Shown here: positions 2,255 to 6,889 of the stretch, in pieces
How the letters are laid out: each line of letters opens with the position of its first letter
How positions within the stretch are numbered: the first letter of the stretch is position 1
Translations under genes and position numbers: made by a program
Notes under the pieces: generated by a model
Database searches by the model: none
Told to the model about the DNA's origin: nothing
What the model saw: only the letters and a program-made list of their open reading frames with translations
IMG/VR virus record: IMGVR_UViG_3300025818_000049
Coordinates: 1 to 39,655 of that record
Strand: one strand, 5' to 3'
Origin: a virus
DNA length: 39,655 bases

Positions 2255-2557
2255 TCAGGCGGGTTCGGGGATGCGATCGACCTTGATCGCCTTTGCCGCC
2301 TTCTTGGCAAGTGCCAGATCATATGCGGACTGCATTCGAAGCATGGTCGCGGCAGAGACACCAAAAGCCTTCTCGAACCGAATAGCCATTTCGGGCGAAA
2401 GCGCGGCCTTCCCGTTGAGCATGTTGCTCATGGCTGCGCGCGTTACCCCTAGCCGCTCTGCGGCGATTGTTACGTTCAATCCATAGGGCTTAACGATTTC
2501 TTCCATGAGGAACGGGCCGGGATGGATGGCGAAAGAGTCGTGTAGCTTGATAGCCAT
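2255..2557 (-). CDS. higA: HigA-family antitoxin (XRE HTH)
   Basis: A 100-residue HTH protein of the HigA addiction-module family. The opening 'IHPGPFLMEEIVKPYGLN' is the family hallmark, followed by an XRE-type helix-turn-helix at ~29-50 (IAAERLGVTRAAMSNMLNGK) and 'LSPEMAIRFEKAFGVSAATMLRMQSAYDL'. HigA binds and neutralises HigB and represses the operon. It is cotranscribed downstream of higB, with start and stop overlapping at 2557-2559; toxin-first order is typical for higBA. On a phage, the pair may stabilise the prophage or exclude other phages; which applies here is unknown. Confidence 0.9.
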   Translation of the reverse strand: MAIKLHDSFAIHPGPFLMEEIVKPYGLNVTIAAERLGVTRAAMSNMLNGKAALSPEMAIRFEKAFGVSAATMLRMQSAYDLALAKKAAKAIKVDRIPEPA

Positions 2558-2838
2558 TAGTGATAATCCTCCAAATCAAGCTCGCCGACCCTCCTGTCGT
2601 CGAGCTTAGTGAATGTGAGCCTCCAGTTTTTTGTGACCGTCATGGCGTATGTGCCTTTGCGATCACCTTTCAGCGCATGAAAGCCAAAGTTAGGCGGAGT
2701 GCGCAGTTCGTCGAAAGAGCCAGCGTTAGCGATAAATGCAAGCATGTTGGTGAGCCGTTTCGGCTGGATAATGCCCGCCGACTTGCCGGTTTCTGCGAAC
2801 CCTTGAAGCGCCTTGTGCTTGATGCTCTCGATTTCCAT
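2557..2838 (-). CDS. higB: HigB-family toxin (RelE/ParE superfamily mRNA interferase)
   Basis: A 93-residue protein of the plasmid-maintenance killer family: 'IESIKHKALQGFAETGKSAGI' at the start, 'FHALKGDRKGTYAMTVTKNWRLTF' in the middle, and C-terminal 'ELDLEDYH', all typical of HigB. Relatives cut mRNA on the ribosome. The conserved Lys/Arg/His residues of the fold (K55, R73 region, terminal DYH) appear intact, so it is probably active. It is first in a leftward two-gene operon with a palindromic operator just upstream (2845-2861). It sits on the strand opposite to all surrounding virion genes. Confidence 0.9.
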   Translation of the reverse strand: MEIESIKHKALQGFAETGKSAGIIQPKRLTNMLAFIANAGSFDELRTPPNFGFHALKGDRKGTYAMTVTKNWRLTFTKLDDRRVGELDLEDYH

Positions 2839-2841
2839 GCG

Positions 2842-2873
2842 AGTGTATTGCCATACAATACGCCAAGTGTCAA
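2842..2873 (-). promoter_or_regulatory. higBA promoter and HigA operator candidate
   Basis: On the minus strand a consensus -35 TTGACA lies at 2873-2868. A perfect 6-bp palindrome, GTATTG-CCATA-CAATAC, spans 2845-2861, covering the place where the -10 must fall and ending seven bases from the higB ATG. HigA-type antitoxins repress their operon from such palindromes. The -10 hexamer itself is weak (CAATAC/AATACA). Confidence 0.55.
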
Positions 2874-2910
2874 GCTACACTATACACCTTTCACATAATT
2901 CACAGCCCTA

Positions 2911-2938
2911 TTGCATTAATGGTTCAGCATGGTATAAA
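2911..2938 (+). promoter_or_regulatory. Rightward promoter candidate for the moron genes
   Basis: TTGCAT (2911-2916), 16-bp spacer, TATAAA (2933-2938), in the AT-rich divergent gap between higB and the gene at 3017. The gap 2839-3016 holds no convincing gene. This would drive the four small forward genes independently of the phage late programme. Confidence 0.45.
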
Positions 2939-3016
2939 TGCGGCATCTCTGGGCCAACATGGCTGACAACTATGGACGGAAACGAACAGAGATGGATGGA
3001 AACATGGAGCACTTAA

Positions 3017-3220
3017 ATGAAAACCCTAGACGACGTAAAGGCAGACATGAGCGCGCTTTATGAGGAATTGAAGCGCGGCGATGTGGAAATCAAACAAGCT
3101 GCCGAACTTGCCAATATCACTGGTAAGTATCTCAAGGCCGAGCAACTGCAGCTTGCTCGCGAGGTGTTTGAAAACAACCTTCAGTCCAACGCGCCGAAGC
3201 GGCTCGCCAATGCGGCCTGA
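3017..3220 (+). CDS. Small conserved phage protein (67 aa), function unknown
   Basis: Predicted all-helical 67-residue protein (MKTLDDVKADMSALYEELKR...ELANITGKYLKAEQLQLAREVF). It resembles short proteins common in phage early regions that often sit beside zinc-finger or HNH genes, but I cannot assign a function. Good ribosome site GGAG seven bases before ATG. First forward gene of the island; it overlaps the following zinc-finger gene by 11 bases. Confidence 0.65.
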   Translation: MKTLDDVKADMSALYEELKRGDVEIKQAAELANITGKYLKAEQLQLAREVFENNLQSNAPKRLANAA

Positions 3221-3653
3221 GATAACCAAGCGGTGCAAGGGGTGCGGTGAAGACAAACCGCACTCCGAGTACCATATCCACCAGTCAAATGCTGATGGAT
3301 TGCGCTCAAAATGCAAGACGTGTCGGAGTGCTGAGAATAAGGCCAACAAGGAGCGCAACCGCCCTTATTTTGCGGAGTACCATAAGCGAAATGCGAGGCG
3401 GATATGCGAGCGCGTCAATGCGTGGCGCTCCGGCCTTTCCGGCGAAAAGCTAAAGCGATACAGCCGCGCCGTAGCAGAAGGCGGCAAAAGGTTCAGAAAG
3501 ACGCGGAAGGGCGAACTCTCTACCACAAAAGGCAACATGTCCAAACTCACGGGAATACCCATCGATATGATCGATGACGGTGTGGTCGAGGCCAAAGCGG
3601 AACAACTCCGCTTGACCCGCCTAATCCGCTCGCTCAAGAAGGGCGCGAAATGA
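3210..3653 (+). CDS. Zinc-ribbon protein, HNH/EndoVII-like N-terminus without visible HNH core
   Basis: A 147-residue basic protein. Residues 9-39 carry a four-cysteine zinc ribbon (CKGCGEDKPHSEY...DGLRSKCKTC), the N-terminal signature of many phage HNH or endonuclease-VII-like proteins. The expected His-Asn-His core that normally follows is not visible; instead there are Lys/Arg-rich helices and a C-terminal 'LTGIPIDMIDDGVVEAKAEQLRLTRLIRSLKK' segment. Start ATG 3210 was chosen because it precedes the zinc ribbon and overlaps the previous gene. It may bind nucleic acid; nuclease activity is doubtful. Moderate confidence that it is real, low for function. Confidence 0.65.
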   Translation: MRPEITKRCKGCGEDKPHSEYHIHQSNADGLRSKCKTCRSAENKANKERNRPYFAEYHKRNARRICERVNAWRSGLSGEKLKRYSRAVAEGGKRFRKTRKGELSTTKGNMSKLTGIPIDMIDDGVVEAKAEQLRLTRLIRSLKKGAK

Positions 3654-3683
3654 CCGGGACTACAACAGGCAGAAAGAGAATCG

Positions 3684-3866
3684 ATGACTGAGTTCTGCGT
3701 TGACGCCGAAACTCTCGACCGCGTGGCGCGATACCTTCGCCCATCAGCGTTTAGAGATGGCGCGCTTCCTAGTTTGCGAATAATCGCATATCGGGATGCA
3801 ACCAGGGCCATGTTGGCCTTGACAGTAAGGACGCCCAATGACCGAACCCGAGAAGCTGGCATATAG
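3684..3866 (+). CDS. Small hypothetical protein (60 aa)
   Basis: A 60-residue open frame with an AGAAAGAGAA sequence just upstream of its ATG. It overlaps the next gene by 29 bases. The N-terminal half (FCVDAETLDRVARYLRPSAFRD) could form helices. I recognise no family, and the C-terminus that overlaps the next gene looks unconstrained. It may be spurious. Confidence 0.35.
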   Translation: MTEFCVDAETLDRVARYLRPSAFRDGALPSLRIIAYRDATRAMLALTVRTPNDRTREAGI

Positions 3867-4020
3867 CATCAAAGACGCTGCGAAGGCGCTTGGTCTTGGC
3901 ACCACGACGATCAACCGCATGATCAAGGACGGCCGGCTCAAGGCGGTAAAGATCGGCGGGCGCACATTGATCCCTGCCGCAGCATTGCGTGCGATCATAG
4001 ACAATGCACCGCCTGCATAG
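3838..4020 (+). CDS. Excisionase-like HTH protein (HTH_17 / MerR-type fold)
   Basis: A 60-residue protein with the complete short winged-helix motif seen in excisionase-like proteins: 'AYSIKDAAKALGLGTTTINRMIKDGRLKAVKIGGRTLIP' (8-46). Such proteins bind DNA as small architectural or regulatory factors. A phage excisionase would normally be near the integrase, 23 kb away; here the gene sits directly before the coat gene. It could therefore be a regulator of the island or of coat expression, or a displaced Xis. Ribosome site AAGGA eight bases before ATG. Confidence 0.75.
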   Translation: MTEPEKLAYSIKDAAKALGLGTTTINRMIKDGRLKAVKIGGRTLIPAAALRAIIDNAPPA

Positions 4021-4026
4021 CCCCTA

Positions 4027-4162
4027 TTGACATTCTTACGCATTTGAATCATTTTCTTGCGTCATAGAGATGGGCAAGGTCCGTTTCTTTCTCCGGTAAG
4101 GCCGGAACCGCACCGCAGATCAGGTCTGCCGCGGCTTCAAACCTTCAAACCGGAGATTTCCC
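4027..4162 (+). promoter_or_regulatory. Coat gene leader: -35-like box and structured leader hiding the ribosome site
   Basis: A consensus TTGACA (4027-4032) lacks an obvious -10 at 16-18 bp. Further down, TCTCCGGT (4090-4097) is perfectly complementary to ACCGGAGA (4149-4156), which contains the coat ribosome site GGAGA. The 51 nt between include an inner hairpin GCAGA/TCTGC (4115-4119 with 4125-4129) and possible CCGC/GCGG pairing. In the closed form the coat start (GTG 4163) would be masked. No gene is seen in 4021-4162. Confidence 0.5.
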
Positions 4163-5308
4163 GTGGCAAACACGCTCACCAGCCTTATTCCCGACATCAC
4201 CGAAGCGCTTGATACCGTTTCGCGTGAGATGGTCGGCATGGTTCCCGCCGTTCGCACCGACACTGCCGCCGATCGCGTAGCAATCGGTCAGAACCTTATT
4301 ATCCCGATTACACCCGTTGCAACCTCGGCGAACAACACGCCAGGCGTCACCGCGCCTGACACCGGCGATCAAACAATCGGCAATGTGACCGTTTCGATCA
4401 CCAAGTCGAAGCACGTTCCTGTTCGCTGGAATGGCGAGGAAACCAAGGGCTTGCAGAACGCTGGCACTTTCTCCTCGATCCAGGCGCAGCGCTTTTATCA
4501 GGGCATTCGCGCCCTGGTGAACGAGATGGAAGTCGATCTCTGGACCGAAGGCTATCAGTCGTCCTCGCGCGGCTACGGCACCGCCGCAACCGCGCCTTTC
4601 GGCACCGCAAGCGACCTCAGCGATTTTGCTGGCGTTGCCCGCATTCTCGACGAGAACGGTTGCCCGACGAGTGACCGCCAGCTCGTCCTCGGCCACGCTG
4701 CTATCGCAAACCTGCGCGGCAAGCAGTCGGTGTTGTTCAAAGTCAACGAGGCTGGTTCGGCTGACATGCTGCGCAACGGTATGACCGACCGCGTGCAGAA
4801 CTTTGCGCTACGCCACTCTGACGCCGTTGGTATCCATACGAAGGGCACTGGCGCAAGCTACCTGCTCAACGACGCATCGAGTGCCATTGGCGACACCTCG
4901 ATCGCGGCGGATACTGGTTCGGGCACGATCCTGGCTGGTGACGTTGTGACCTTCGCAGGCACCTCGGATAAGTATATCGTGAACACCGCACTTTCGGGTG
5001 GCGCGTTCACGATCGGCGAGCCCGGTCTGATCGCAGCCGAAACCGACAACGACGCTATCACGGTCGGCAACAACTACACCGCGAACCTGGCCTTCGACCG
5101 TAACGCAATCATCCTCGCAAACCGTATGCCGGCACTGCCGGAAGGCGGCGACGCGGCGGAAGATGCTGTCACGATCGTCGACCCGGTTTCGGGCCTTGTG
5201 TTCGAAGTCGCGCTCTACAAGCAGTTCCTGCAGAACGTGTTCCACGTTCGTGCCGCTTGGGGCGTGAGCGCGGTCAAGTCGGCTCACATCGCCACCCTGC
5301 TCGGCTGA
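4163..5308 (+). CDS. Major capsid protein, P22 coat-like (gene 5 family)
   Basis: A 381-residue coat protein. 'MANTLTSLIPDITEALDTVSREMVGMVPAV' and 'TPGVTAPDTGDQTIGNVTVSITKSKHVPVRW' are characteristic of the P22-coat family common in environmental siphoviruses. It adopts the HK97 fold and forms the icosahedral shell. Residues ~215-300 (Gly/Thr/Ala-rich, 'DTSIAADTGSGTILAGDVVTFAG') look like an inserted beta-rich surface domain. Start is GTG, fixed by GGAGA six bases upstream and by family homology at Met-Ala-Asn. Scaffold is encoded upstream, separated by the 2255-4020 island. A strong hairpin follows the stop. Confidence 0.93.
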   Translation: MANTLTSLIPDITEALDTVSREMVGMVPAVRTDTAADRVAIGQNLIIPITPVATSANNTPGVTAPDTGDQTIGNVTVSITKSKHVPVRWNGEETKGLQNAGTFSSIQAQRFYQGIRALVNEMEVDLWTEGYQSSSRGYGTAATAPFGTASDLSDFAGVARILDENGCPTSDRQLVLGHAAIANLRGKQSVLFKVNEAGSADMLRNGMTDRVQNFALRHSDAVGIHTKGTGASYLLNDASSAIGDTSIAADTGSGTILAGDVVTFAGTSDKYIVNTALSGGAFTIGEPGLIAAETDNDAITVGNNYTANLAFDRNAIILANRMPALPEGGDAAEDAVTIVDPVSGLVFEVALYKQFLQNVFHVRAAWGVSAVKSAHIATLLG

Positions 5309-5315
5309 TCCACCT

Positions 5316-5351
5316 AGACCGGGGCGGTTTCCCTCTCCCCCGCCCCGGTCT
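5316..5351 (+). terminator. GC-rich hairpin after the coat gene
   Basis: Perfect 12-bp inverted repeat AGACCGGGGCGG (5316-5327) and CCGCCCCGGTCT (5340-5351) with a 12-nt pyrimidine loop, seven bases after the coat stop. No U-run follows, so it may be a partial terminator or an mRNA-stabilising 3' structure that keeps coat levels above those of the downstream genes. Confidence 0.6.
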
Positions 5352-5368
5352 CTAACCGGAGGCCGATC

Positions 5369-5536
5369 ATGGCAGCGAAAAAACAAGCAACAGCAAAGGC
5401 GCCGGCTCCCGCAAAGGAAGCCGGGCCTAAACTCGTCAAGATGGTGCGTTCGTCGGATTTCCCCGCGCCGCACGAATGTGATTGCCACCCCGCCGAGGTC
5501 GAGAACTTCCGCGCGGGCGGCTGGCAGGAGGCTTAA
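5369..5536 (+). CDS. Small conserved head-region protein (55 aa)
   Basis: A 55-residue protein starting after a good GGAGG site (5357-5361). The N-terminal third is Lys/Ala/Pro-rich and likely disordered (MAAKKQATAKAPAPAKEAG). The C-terminal part contains 'CDCHPAEVENFRAGGWQ', resembling the 'HPAEVENYRAGGW' motif of short proteins encoded right after coat genes in many phages. Function is unknown; a minor head or decoration role is inferred from position only. Confidence 0.7.
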   Translation: MAAKKQATAKAPAPAKEAGPKLVKMVRSSDFPAPHECDCHPAEVENFRAGGWQEA

Positions 5537-5539
5537 CCA

Positions 5540-5971
5540 ATGGCAGGCTTTGCAGACGTAACCGAGAACGCAATTCTCGATCTCATCTATACGGCGGTTG
5601 CGTGGGCAAACTACGCGGACAACGCCGCAACTTCACCACAGACCAACATTCATTGCGGTTTGCACACGGCAGACCCAGGCGATACCGGCACAATGTCAAC
5701 GAGCGAAACGACTTACACCTCGTATGCGCGCGTCAACGTCGCTCGCACGACTGGCGGTTGGACTGTGACAAACAACAGTGTTTCGCCCGTCGCGGCAATC
5801 AGCTTCCCGGCAGGCACGGGCGGCTCCGGCACAGTAACGCACTTCTCGACCGGCAAAACTGGCGGCGGTGCGGCTGACATTCTCGCATCTGGAACGGTTA
5901 CGCCGAACATTGTCACGGGCAACGGCGTCACGCCGCAGCTTTCGACTTCGACCGCTATCACGCTGGACTAA
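5540..5971 (+). CDS. Gp80-like structural protein (head or tail fibre family)
   Basis: A 143-residue protein with the pattern of the phage 'gp80 / tail fibre' family: an N-terminal helix (ADVTENAILDLIYTAVAW), then 'IHCGLHTADPGDTGTMSTSE..YTSYARVNV', and a beta-rich Gly/Thr C-terminus. Family members are small virion proteins. It lies just after the coat gene, before the head-tail connectors, so a capsid-surface or neck role is more likely than a tail fibre. ATG follows the previous stop by three bases; ribosome site AGGAGG. Confidence 0.72.
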   Translation: MAGFADVTENAILDLIYTAVAWANYADNAATSPQTNIHCGLHTADPGDTGTMSTSETTYTSYARVNVARTTGGWTVTNNSVSPVAAISFPAGTGGSGTVTHFSTGKTGGGAADILASGTVTPNIVTGNGVTPQLSTSTAITLD

Positions 5972-5975
5972 ATGA

Positions 5976-6437
5976 ATGGGAGCGCGGGCCTTCTCTGACT
6001 TGCTGGAAACGGCGGACGTTAGAGGTTTGCGTGCCTATTGGCGTGAGGCTTCGCCCCATTTGCCGCAACCCAAGACCCGCGCAGAAGCCGAAATCATCAT
6101 GCACAGGGCGCGCACCGAGGCGGCTTCTGTATCGCTTCGCAAGCGTGCCTATTCGCACGCATGGTTGTGTGAACGCGACCTGCCAAGCGGCTTGCCGGAT
6201 CAATTGAAGCCCAGCGCAGAACGACTTTATCCGATTGTCAAAAGCGCGGTCGGCATTTCGGTAAACTTCAAGAGCGAGTGGCTCAAACCCGCAGCAAGGG
6301 AAATCCAAGGCGCAATGGAAAACGCGGTCGGAGATGCTTATGCGGAAGGCCGCACCGATCCCGAGTTCGTTAGCGCACGCATGGCGGAGGCGAAGGAGCG
6401 GGCCGCTAAGGCGCTGTTCGGGAATGCGCTGCCATGA
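5976..6437 (+). CDS. Unknown head-module protein (153 aa)
   Basis: Mostly helical and charged, 153 residues, no family recognised. Notable segments are 'LRAYWREASPHLPQPKTRAEAEIIMHRARTEA' and a C-terminal helix rich in Ala/Glu/Arg (VSARMAEAKERAAKALFG). Its stop overlaps the ATG of the cysteine protease gene (ATGA at 6434), so the two are translationally coupled; a functional link with the protease is plausible but unproven. Confidence 0.72.
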   Translation: MGARAFSDLLETADVRGLRAYWREASPHLPQPKTRAEAEIIMHRARTEAASVSLRKRAYSHAWLCERDLPSGLPDQLKPSAERLYPIVKSAVGISVNFKSEWLKPAAREIQGAMENAVGDAYAEGRTDPEFVSARMAEAKERAAKALFGNALP

Positions 6438-6889
6438 CAGAATCCCCCCCTCGCCTTTGGTGCCGCGCACCGATCAGGCTGAACCAGCCCTATCACAAGA
6501 TGCTGGGGTTGCCTGAGTTAAAGATAGCTATAGGCGGGGTTAATTCGGCGGCGGCTATCAATCGCTTCGTCAATGACAGGATACATTACACGCGCGACCG
6601 GGCGGACGCTTGGCAATCACCCAGCGTGACACTTGAATGCGGCAGGGGCGACTGTGAGGACATGGCATTGCTCAAGATGGCGATGCTTGCTGACTTGGGC
6701 GTCAAGTCGTGGCTGCTGCTGGTTTATGACAAGATCGCCCGCTTGCACCATGCGGTTGCGCTGACAAGCAACCTTGTTTTCGACCTGCACACACCCAAGC
6801 CGCTGCCCATTGAGATGGTGCCAGATTATCGGCCAATTCTGGCGCTCACACGCACGGAAGCGTGGCTTTACGGGAAGGCGGCGATATGA
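6434..6889 (+). CDS. Transglutaminase-like cysteine protease (BTLCP family)
   Basis: A 151-residue protein with the papain/transglutaminase-type triad of bacterial transglutaminase-like cysteine proteinases: Cys74 in 'ECGRGDCEDMALLKMAMLADLGV', His105 or His106 in 'ARLHHAVAL', and Asp117 in 'NLVFDLH'. Upstream, 'INRFVNDRIHYTRDRADAWQSP' matches the family N-terminal region. No signal peptide is seen, so it acts in the host cytoplasm or within the virion. Position among head genes suggests processing or crosslinking of a structural protein, perhaps the adjacent repeat fibre, but no target is known from sequence. Bacterial relatives such as LapG are periplasmic, unlike this one. Confidence 0.85.
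   Translation: MTESPPRLWCRAPIRLNQPYHKMLGLPELKIAIGGVNSAAAINRFVNDRIHYTRDRADAWQSPSVTLECGRGDCEDMALLKMAMLADLGVKSWLLLVYDKIARLHHAVALTSNLVFDLHTPKPLPIEMVPDYRPILALTRTEAWLYGKAAI

Follow-up and report, generated by a model that had tools for sequence, protein, structure and literature searches.

The leaders through which ribosomal proteins autoregulate their synthesis and the coat operators of RNA phages of the MS2 type both place a structured leader next to the Shine-Dalgarno (SD) sequence, and in phage P22 the scaffolding protein is subject to post-transcriptional autoregulation. The element described here, located in front of the coat gene of a virus, resembles the ribosomal-protein leaders and the MS2-type operators in the structured leader by the SD, in a reader that is probably a structural protein and in the tuning of stoichiometry; it differs from them in belonging to a double-stranded DNA tailed phage, in consisting of two or three tandem hairpins, in the alternative long-range fold of the coat leader and in an effector that is putative. 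With P22 it would have in common that a tailed phage adjusts the proportions of scaffold and coat post-transcriptionally, with the difference that a defined, conserved RNA element is seen in the present case. Among the open-licence PMC papers searched, we found no paper on the autoregulation of the P22 scaffolding protein and no description of the present element. Rfam 15 gave no match at the gathering score in the window (the whole stretch of DNA analysed, 39,655 nucleotides) or in 20 loci of relatives, and no leader match at E<=5 in positions 3600-4700 of the window or in 12 loci. Tandem phage RNA hairpins of similar size are also found in the put RNA of HK022, which, according to PMC9378689, is about 70 nt long, comprises two stem-loops, works without a dedicated protein and acts on RNA polymerase from a site downstream of the early promoters; the elements analysed here, in contrast, lie directly before scaffold and coat starts.

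The gene downstream of the leader, at 4163-5308 on the + strand (381 aa), had been taken for the coat gene from its sequence, and profile search identifies its product as the major coat (head) protein (PHROG 283, E 6e-96), with relatives in other phages that carry the annotation 'P22 coat protein 5 family'. The scaffold gene (1547-2209, + strand, identified by profile search) is of the PHROG 206 type, has no DUF6651 match and starts 2 nt after the end of the upstream gene, so that there is no space for a leader element at that site. Between the scaffold and coat genes lie two small ORFs on the minus strand (2255-2838), which from inspection we take to resemble a toxin-antitoxin pair of the HigB/HigA type, and an ORF at 3081-3653 that matches phage endonuclease VII/HNH families. 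A simple scan of positions 2500-6500 for promoters of the sigma-70 type returned two promoter-like sites, with 1.5 expected by chance; the nearer one (3896-3923) lies within the helix-turn-helix (HTH) gene adjacent to the leader, and a sigma-70 promoter in the leader itself is thus not supported. Searches of the leader DNA of the window against phages and of the leader DNA of a Sphingobium relative (L003) against plasmids found nothing.

Within the leader, TCTCCGGT at 4090-4097 is perfectly complementary to ACCGGAGA at 4149-4156, and the second arm contains the ribosome site of the coat gene just before its GTG start (SD core GGAG at 4152-4155, 7 nt before the GTG at 4163, + strand), exactly as the sequence-only reading had it. 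The computed fold agrees with that reading as well: the 141-nt leader (4060-4200) folds at -50.9 kcal/mol compared to a mean of -36.4 for shuffled sequences (z -3.98, with 1 of 200 shuffles as good), and this fold contains the SD-hiding stem together with the inner hairpin that had been proposed to fill the loop (core at 4108-4134). The stem is lengthened by pairing of AAGG (4098-4101) with CCUU (4142-4145), so that its 5' arm extends over 4090-4101 and its 3' arm over 4142-4156. Under this model, the SD of the window is predicted to be unpaired with a probability of 0.0004 and to cost 10.2 kcal/mol to open, and in each of three sequence contexts it pairs with the 5' arm.

Two features absent from the earlier account alter the picture: an upstream hairpin and a local alternative for the 5' arm. 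The upstream hairpin, h0 (4066-4088, loop CAAGG at 4075-4079), is seen in the fold and in a pattern scan, and three of its five pairs show two-sided changes among the relatives described below. The 5' arm can form a local hairpin, h1 (4092-4106, UCCGG-UAAGG-CCGGA), which belongs to the consensus of these relatives (97.9% of cells paired in eight leaders) and leaves the SD free; because the 5' arm is common to both structures, h1 and the SD-hiding stem are mutually exclusive. The inner hairpin, h2 (4108-4134, outer stem CCGC/GCGG, inner hairpin GCAGA-UCAGG-UCUGC), is found in the fold of the window as well as in the consensus and covariation of the relatives and is compatible with both folds. 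The loops of the three hairpins, CAAGG, UAAGG and UCAGG, follow each other at a spacing of 22-23 nt. This tandem array is the only one that the pattern scan detected on the + strand of the window, with none on the other strand, while 30 block-shuffled windows contained 0.3 arrays per strand on average and at most 2. The whole element (4063-4140, + strand) scores 67.8 bits with the covariance model R2, of which the window is a seed, and the next match in the window scores 13.8 bits. The model R1, which describes a related family with GGAU loops (class B, see below), has no match in the window at E<=1; the element forms a class of its own, denoted class A and represented by R2.

Searches with the coat protein yielded 253 sequences including the window, of which 243 had a usable coat start (10 were dropped), corresponding to 160 distinct leaders. 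The class A array is present in 8 of these (window included) and, with two leaders added later (L255 and L256), in 10 distinct leaders. Of the eight seeds, five were chosen by loop pattern and three (the window, L005 and L003) were placed by eye. The RNAalifold consensus of the eight leaders consists of the three local hairpins, with compensatory changes in 14 of its 25 pairs; in the local structure as named here (21 pairs), 91.7% of the cells are paired. Two-sided changes occur in 11 pairs and 20 cells, compared to 5.1 and 6.9 in shuffled alignments, none of which, out of 500, reached such values. In the local stems, G-U exceeds A-C by 20 to 2 (p 1e-4), an excess which indicates that the hairpin structure is selected in the mRNA-sense strand. 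Covariation across related phages, which the sequence-only reading had named as a check, is strong in the local hairpins; for the hiding stem that the reading had in mind, column-wise covariation is weak (77.4% paired compared to 73.3% in shuffles, 27 of 500 shuffles as good, four two-sided cells), and the G-U to A-C ratio of 7:4 is not significant. Strong selection is seen for the tandem hairpins, and the hiding stem is in competition with them.

Run over 100 sources (594 kb), R2 recovered its seeds and the two unseen leaders, L255 and L256, at 63.9 and 70.4 bits, respectively, with the next non-seed match at 17.2 bits. Both leaders come from genomes of the family of the Sphingobium host and had been obtained by coat similarity, their coat proteins being 48% and 39% identical to that of the window. 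Among seven whole viral records, the six with a class A element contain one strong match each (65-83 bits), and the record of L004 reaches 21 bits. In 397 genomes of the Sphingobium-host family, four match at E<=0.001; a match in one genome (G197, 33 bits) spans an unrelated coding gene and is possibly a chance hit. An element of the window type precedes the coat gene of a Sphingobium prophage. One prophage (genome G020; locus L271, at about 1500-1600) has, besides its coat element, an additional class A array of lower score (35 bits), which precedes a tape-measure-like ORF 8.3 kb further downstream.

The SD is predicted to be hidden in all 10 class A leaders, with a median probability of being unpaired of 0.005 (highest value, 0.25), whereas the median for 93 other ORFs of at least 110 aa from element-bearing loci is 0.366 (Mann-Whitney p 1e-5); opening the SD would cost 6.5-12.4 kcal/mol at equilibrium. 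The 5' arm or the loop of h1 is the main predicted partner in 7 of the 10, the window included (probability 0.67-1.00); the SD of L191 has another partner in all contexts tried, and those of L009 and L010, in which h1 is predicted to fold locally at 0.80-0.85, have another partner in two of three contexts. The 5' arm and loop of h1 pair better with the tail of their own leader than with other class A tails (-17.7 versus -15.4; 38 of 20000 permutations as good), a support of moderate strength; in a separate permutation of heads and tails, 27 of 10000 were as good. Compared with shuffles of the own tail, z is negative in all 10 leaders (mean -1.51; p<0.05 in 4 of 10; Wilcoxon p 0.001), in a test for which head and tail lengths differed slightly in L255 and L256 and a plain shuffle was used wherever the dinucleotide shuffle failed. 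The h1 loop alone matches the bases preceding the SD modestly (788 of 20000), and the extension of the hiding stem through the loop takes the form AAGG/CCUU in the window and UUGCG/CGCAA in L041, L009 and L255. Owing to the similarity of the SD segment to the 3' arm of h1, part of the pairing in the hiding stem comes at no extra cost. The translational switch based on an SD-hiding stem that had been proposed for the window accordingly survives in part: the hidden SD, the predominance of the h1 arm as its partner and the preference for the own tail speak for it, but the three leaders with another partner and the weak covariation of the stem do not. Under the folding model, the SD is likely hidden in class A leaders in general and, through the stem originally noticed, in the window in particular, both of these predictions being less secure than the array.

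Many relatives carry, at the same place before the coat gene, two hairpins with GGAU loops 22-27 nt apart (class B). The seeds of this family were picked by GGAT[AG] with a stem of at least 3, so loop identity and part of the inner pairing hold by construction. Ten near-identical leaders were removed before the tests of covariation, tail pairing and SD accessibility, leaving 25 (23 in the SD test). In these 25 nonredundant coat leaders, two-sided changes affect 12 of 14 pairs and 49 cells, compared to 15.3 cells in shuffled alignments (0 of 500 as high). Class B coat leaders also pair with their own tails (z -8.0; 0 of 10000 permutations as good); against shuffles of the own tail, the mean z is -1.99, with p<0.05 in 14 of 25 leaders and no significance in the other 11, while 91 control coat leaders devoid of the element have a mean z of -0.21 and 7 of 91 at p<0.05. 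The SD of these leaders is no more hidden than that of other genes (median 0.43 in 23 leaders; p 0.40).

R1 was run on 167 loci, 146 of which are nonredundant with at least 1300 nt upstream. In the latter, all + strand matches at E<=0.01 are either within 220 nt before the coat gene (50) or at 220-2200 nt, the place of the scaffold gene (65), and none is elsewhere; one minus-strand match at this threshold, outside the 146-locus count, does lie elsewhere (L046, 20.7 bits). R1 matches at E<=0.1 are present in 24 of 26 whole viral records; among the 44 matches listed, all 36 with at least 17 bits are at scaffold- or coat-leader sites. Seven of 10 annotated phage records are positive over the whole record: HK639, Flyfo siphovirus Tbat2_3, Caulobacter phage DMCA, Rhizobium phages P106B and RHph_X2_24, Salicola phage CGphi29 and Synechococcus phage Ssp-JY42; the whole records of Microcystis phage Me-ZS1, Pasteurella phage Pm86 and Acinetobacter phage vB_AbaS_qsb1 contain no R1 match. 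The GGAU type precedes both the coat and the scaffold gene in the Rhizobium, Salicola and Synechococcus phages, and the E. coli phage HK639 has a match in the scaffold leader only. Near copies of the HK639 scaffold leader are found in 12 of 5426 complete E. coli genomes, covering 75-80% of the query among the matches listed. In the two Rhizobium phages (L258 and L259), inspection shows a stretch resembling a signal peptide at the N-terminus of the coat protein.

The copies before scaffold genes that R1 detected lie outside the set from which the model was built. The 67 scaffold leaders are R1 matches, six of them with E of 0.01-0.3, so their h1 and h2 lean towards the model; a third hairpin lies outside R1. 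This additional hairpin with a tetraloop, placed between h2 and the start codon, is present in 55 of the 67 compared to a mean of 9.1 and a maximum of 17 with shuffled tails, and its loop is GGAU, GGAA or GGAC in 48 of the 55 compared to 0.3 (mononucleotide shuffles in both cases). By inspection, the SD follows directly after the third hairpin in many of these leaders. After removal of 12 near-duplicates and of 8 leaders with fewer than 18 nt before the start, MAFFT alignment of the remaining 47, made without the model, shows two-sided changes in 18 of 19 pairs and 153 cells, compared to 51.7 in shuffles (0 of 500 as high); 41 of these 47 leaders give 17 of 19 pairs and 127 cells compared to 41.9. 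In the 41, G-U outnumbers A-C by 52 to 22 (p 6e-4); GGAU is the loop of h1 in 26 leaders, of h2 in 30 and of h3 in 32. Head-to-tail pairing is not detected in scaffold leaders: z averages +0.30, and 1 of 50 leaders reaches p<0.05. The account with the best support is one of translational control, through mutually exclusive folds in coat leaders and, in the scaffold leaders of the GGAU family, through a hairpin adjoining the SD.

Other leader types were noticed among the relatives. The coat leaders of L015, L016, L033 and L246 form a third group with C-GAU-G loops, and the scaffolds of the first three of these have a different N-terminal segment (..DGKFVLDxEGID..); possibly, loops and scaffolds here each represent a further, third type and go together. 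In L139 and L140, which belong to the control set and have neither a class A nor a class B element, the upstream part of the coat leader is very strongly complementary to the SD region (z -8.7 and -4.9). Inspection also revealed, in 10 loci (L004, L008, L020, L025, L043, L044, L050, L062, L069 and L071), GC hairpins with runs of T that resemble terminators; they are placed between the scaffold and coat genes, immediately ahead of the coat start.

Computation on these sequences yields the hairpins, their selection in the transcript, the hidden SD and the related family of GGAU-loop elements before scaffold and coat genes. The reading that we favour, and regard as somewhat probable, is that the coat leader is a two-fold mRNA element whose tandem hairpins are bound by a capsid-assembly protein that holds h1 closed and sets the level of coat translation. 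In one fold, h0, h1 and h2 with their matching loops would form and the SD would be free; in the other, h1 would open, and its 5' arm and loop would pair with the SD and the bases just upstream, turning translation off. The tandem hairpins would be the binding sites of a protein made late in infection, most likely one involved in capsid assembly, and its binding would keep h1 closed, which would determine the amount of coat protein produced. We infer translation as the controlled step, along with the direction of the effect and the effector. A ligand-free, kinetic form of control might operate instead: h1 would form first on the nascent RNA, so that the earliest ribosomes would find the SD accessible, transcripts would refold with age to the SD-hiding form, and the matching of the loops would be incidental. 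The location of h1 on the 5' side of the SD-hiding tail fits such a course of events, as does the equilibrium cost of 6.5-12.4 kcal/mol for opening the SD; nevertheless, we consider it unlikely because it does not explain why the loops within one phage match, why there are two or three hairpins or why a loop-matched third hairpin precedes the scaffold start in relatives.

The hairpins could also act on transcription, as an antiterminator similar to the HK022 put RNA, which suppresses termination by binding the beta' zinc-binding domain of RNA polymerase, or on mRNA stability, with the SD pairing as a by-product. The put RNAs (PMC9378689) are likewise of about 70 nt with two stem-loops and without a dedicated protein, and terminator-like hairpins are seen near the element in several relatives (by inspection; annotated in HK639). 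However, the element follows the terminator-like hairpin in HK639 and precedes it in the L085-L095 group, the tail pairing is phage-specific, a third hairpin separates h2 from the scaffold start in 55 of 67 leaders, and the 36 R1 matches of at least 17 bits among those listed for the 26 records all precede scaffold or coat genes; we judge this option distinctly unlikely. A further possibility, which we likewise see as improbable, is that the array alone matters and that the SD-hiding stem merely results from the likeness of the SD to the 3' arm of h1. This would account for the weak covariation of the stem, its G-U to A-C ratio of 7:4 and the other SD partner in 3 of 10 leaders, and CCGG is palindromic; still, the SD is predicted to be hidden in 10 of 10 leaders, the own tail is preferred at 38 in 20000 permutations, and the extension through the h1 loop (AAGG/CCUU; UUGCG/CGCAA) is not explained by such copying. 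We consider a translational switch for capsid proteins, read by a protein, to be the most likely explanation.

As to the reader, the adjacent HTH protein, which the sequence-only reading offered as one possible effector, is not supported: the HTH_17 gene adjoins the leader in the window and its identical copy L001, and in seven other class A loci inspection of the listed ORFs of at least 55 aa showed no HTH gene beside the leader. GGA in hairpin loops is the signature of CsrA, so that host CsrA/RsmA might read the class B loops; we consider this extremely improbable, given that PF02599 is absent at E<=0.001 from all five host genomes searched, including Aminobacter and Shinella, which carry class B elements, and that class A loops have no GGA. 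The same search found the family in three of 14 control genomes (E. coli, B. subtilis and T. maritima). Kissing of loops was also rejected, the loops within one phage being alike rather than complementary on inspection.

The scaffolds of class B phages are of the DUF6651/PHROG 784 kind (four tested) and share a conserved region of some 50 aa at the N-terminus (the N-domain), whereas those of the window and of L003 match PHROG 206 and not DUF6651. Among the 146 nonredundant loci, 76 have both the N-domain and an R1 element, 8 the N-domain alone, 1 the element alone (L051) and 61 neither. The coat tree (142 rows; L051 is outside) shows 22 changes of the N-domain; among 17 independent pairs across well-supported branches, the element goes along in 14.2 on average, behaves oppositely in 0 and shows no difference in 2.8 (p about 1e-4 by sign test). 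This association is partly circular because the N-domain profile was seeded from 67 scaffolds adjoining R1 matches, and it could be explained by joint exchange of neighbouring genes as a cassette without a functional link; the automatic choice of the scaffold ORF was wrong in a number of rows and served inspection only. In the AlphaFold model (mean pLDDT 87.1, pTM 0.48), the N-domain forms a small beta unit attached to a long helix. The best Foldseek hit in the PDB has an E-value of 1.5, with none at E<=0.001, and an RNA-binding fold is thus not supported. As a tentative proposal, which we hold to be less likely than not, the scaffold protein might be an RNA-binding autoregulator whose N-terminal beta domain would read the GGAU hairpins, block its own SD via the third hairpin and hold the coat leaders open, thereby setting the scaffold-to-coat ratio; window-type phages, some of them in hosts of the Sphingobium family, might follow the same logic with other loops and another reader.

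The presence of such hairpins before coat or scaffold genes in many related phages points to a previously unrecognised control of the amount of capsid proteins. If the proposed switch is real, a capsid gene of double-stranded DNA phages would, unusually, be controlled in a manner resembling a riboswitch, and if the scaffold protein is its reader, a single protein would repress scaffold synthesis and free coat synthesis, thus balancing their ratio. How tailed phages arrive at the correct coat-to-scaffold ratio is an old question, and the conserved RNA elements make it directly testable.
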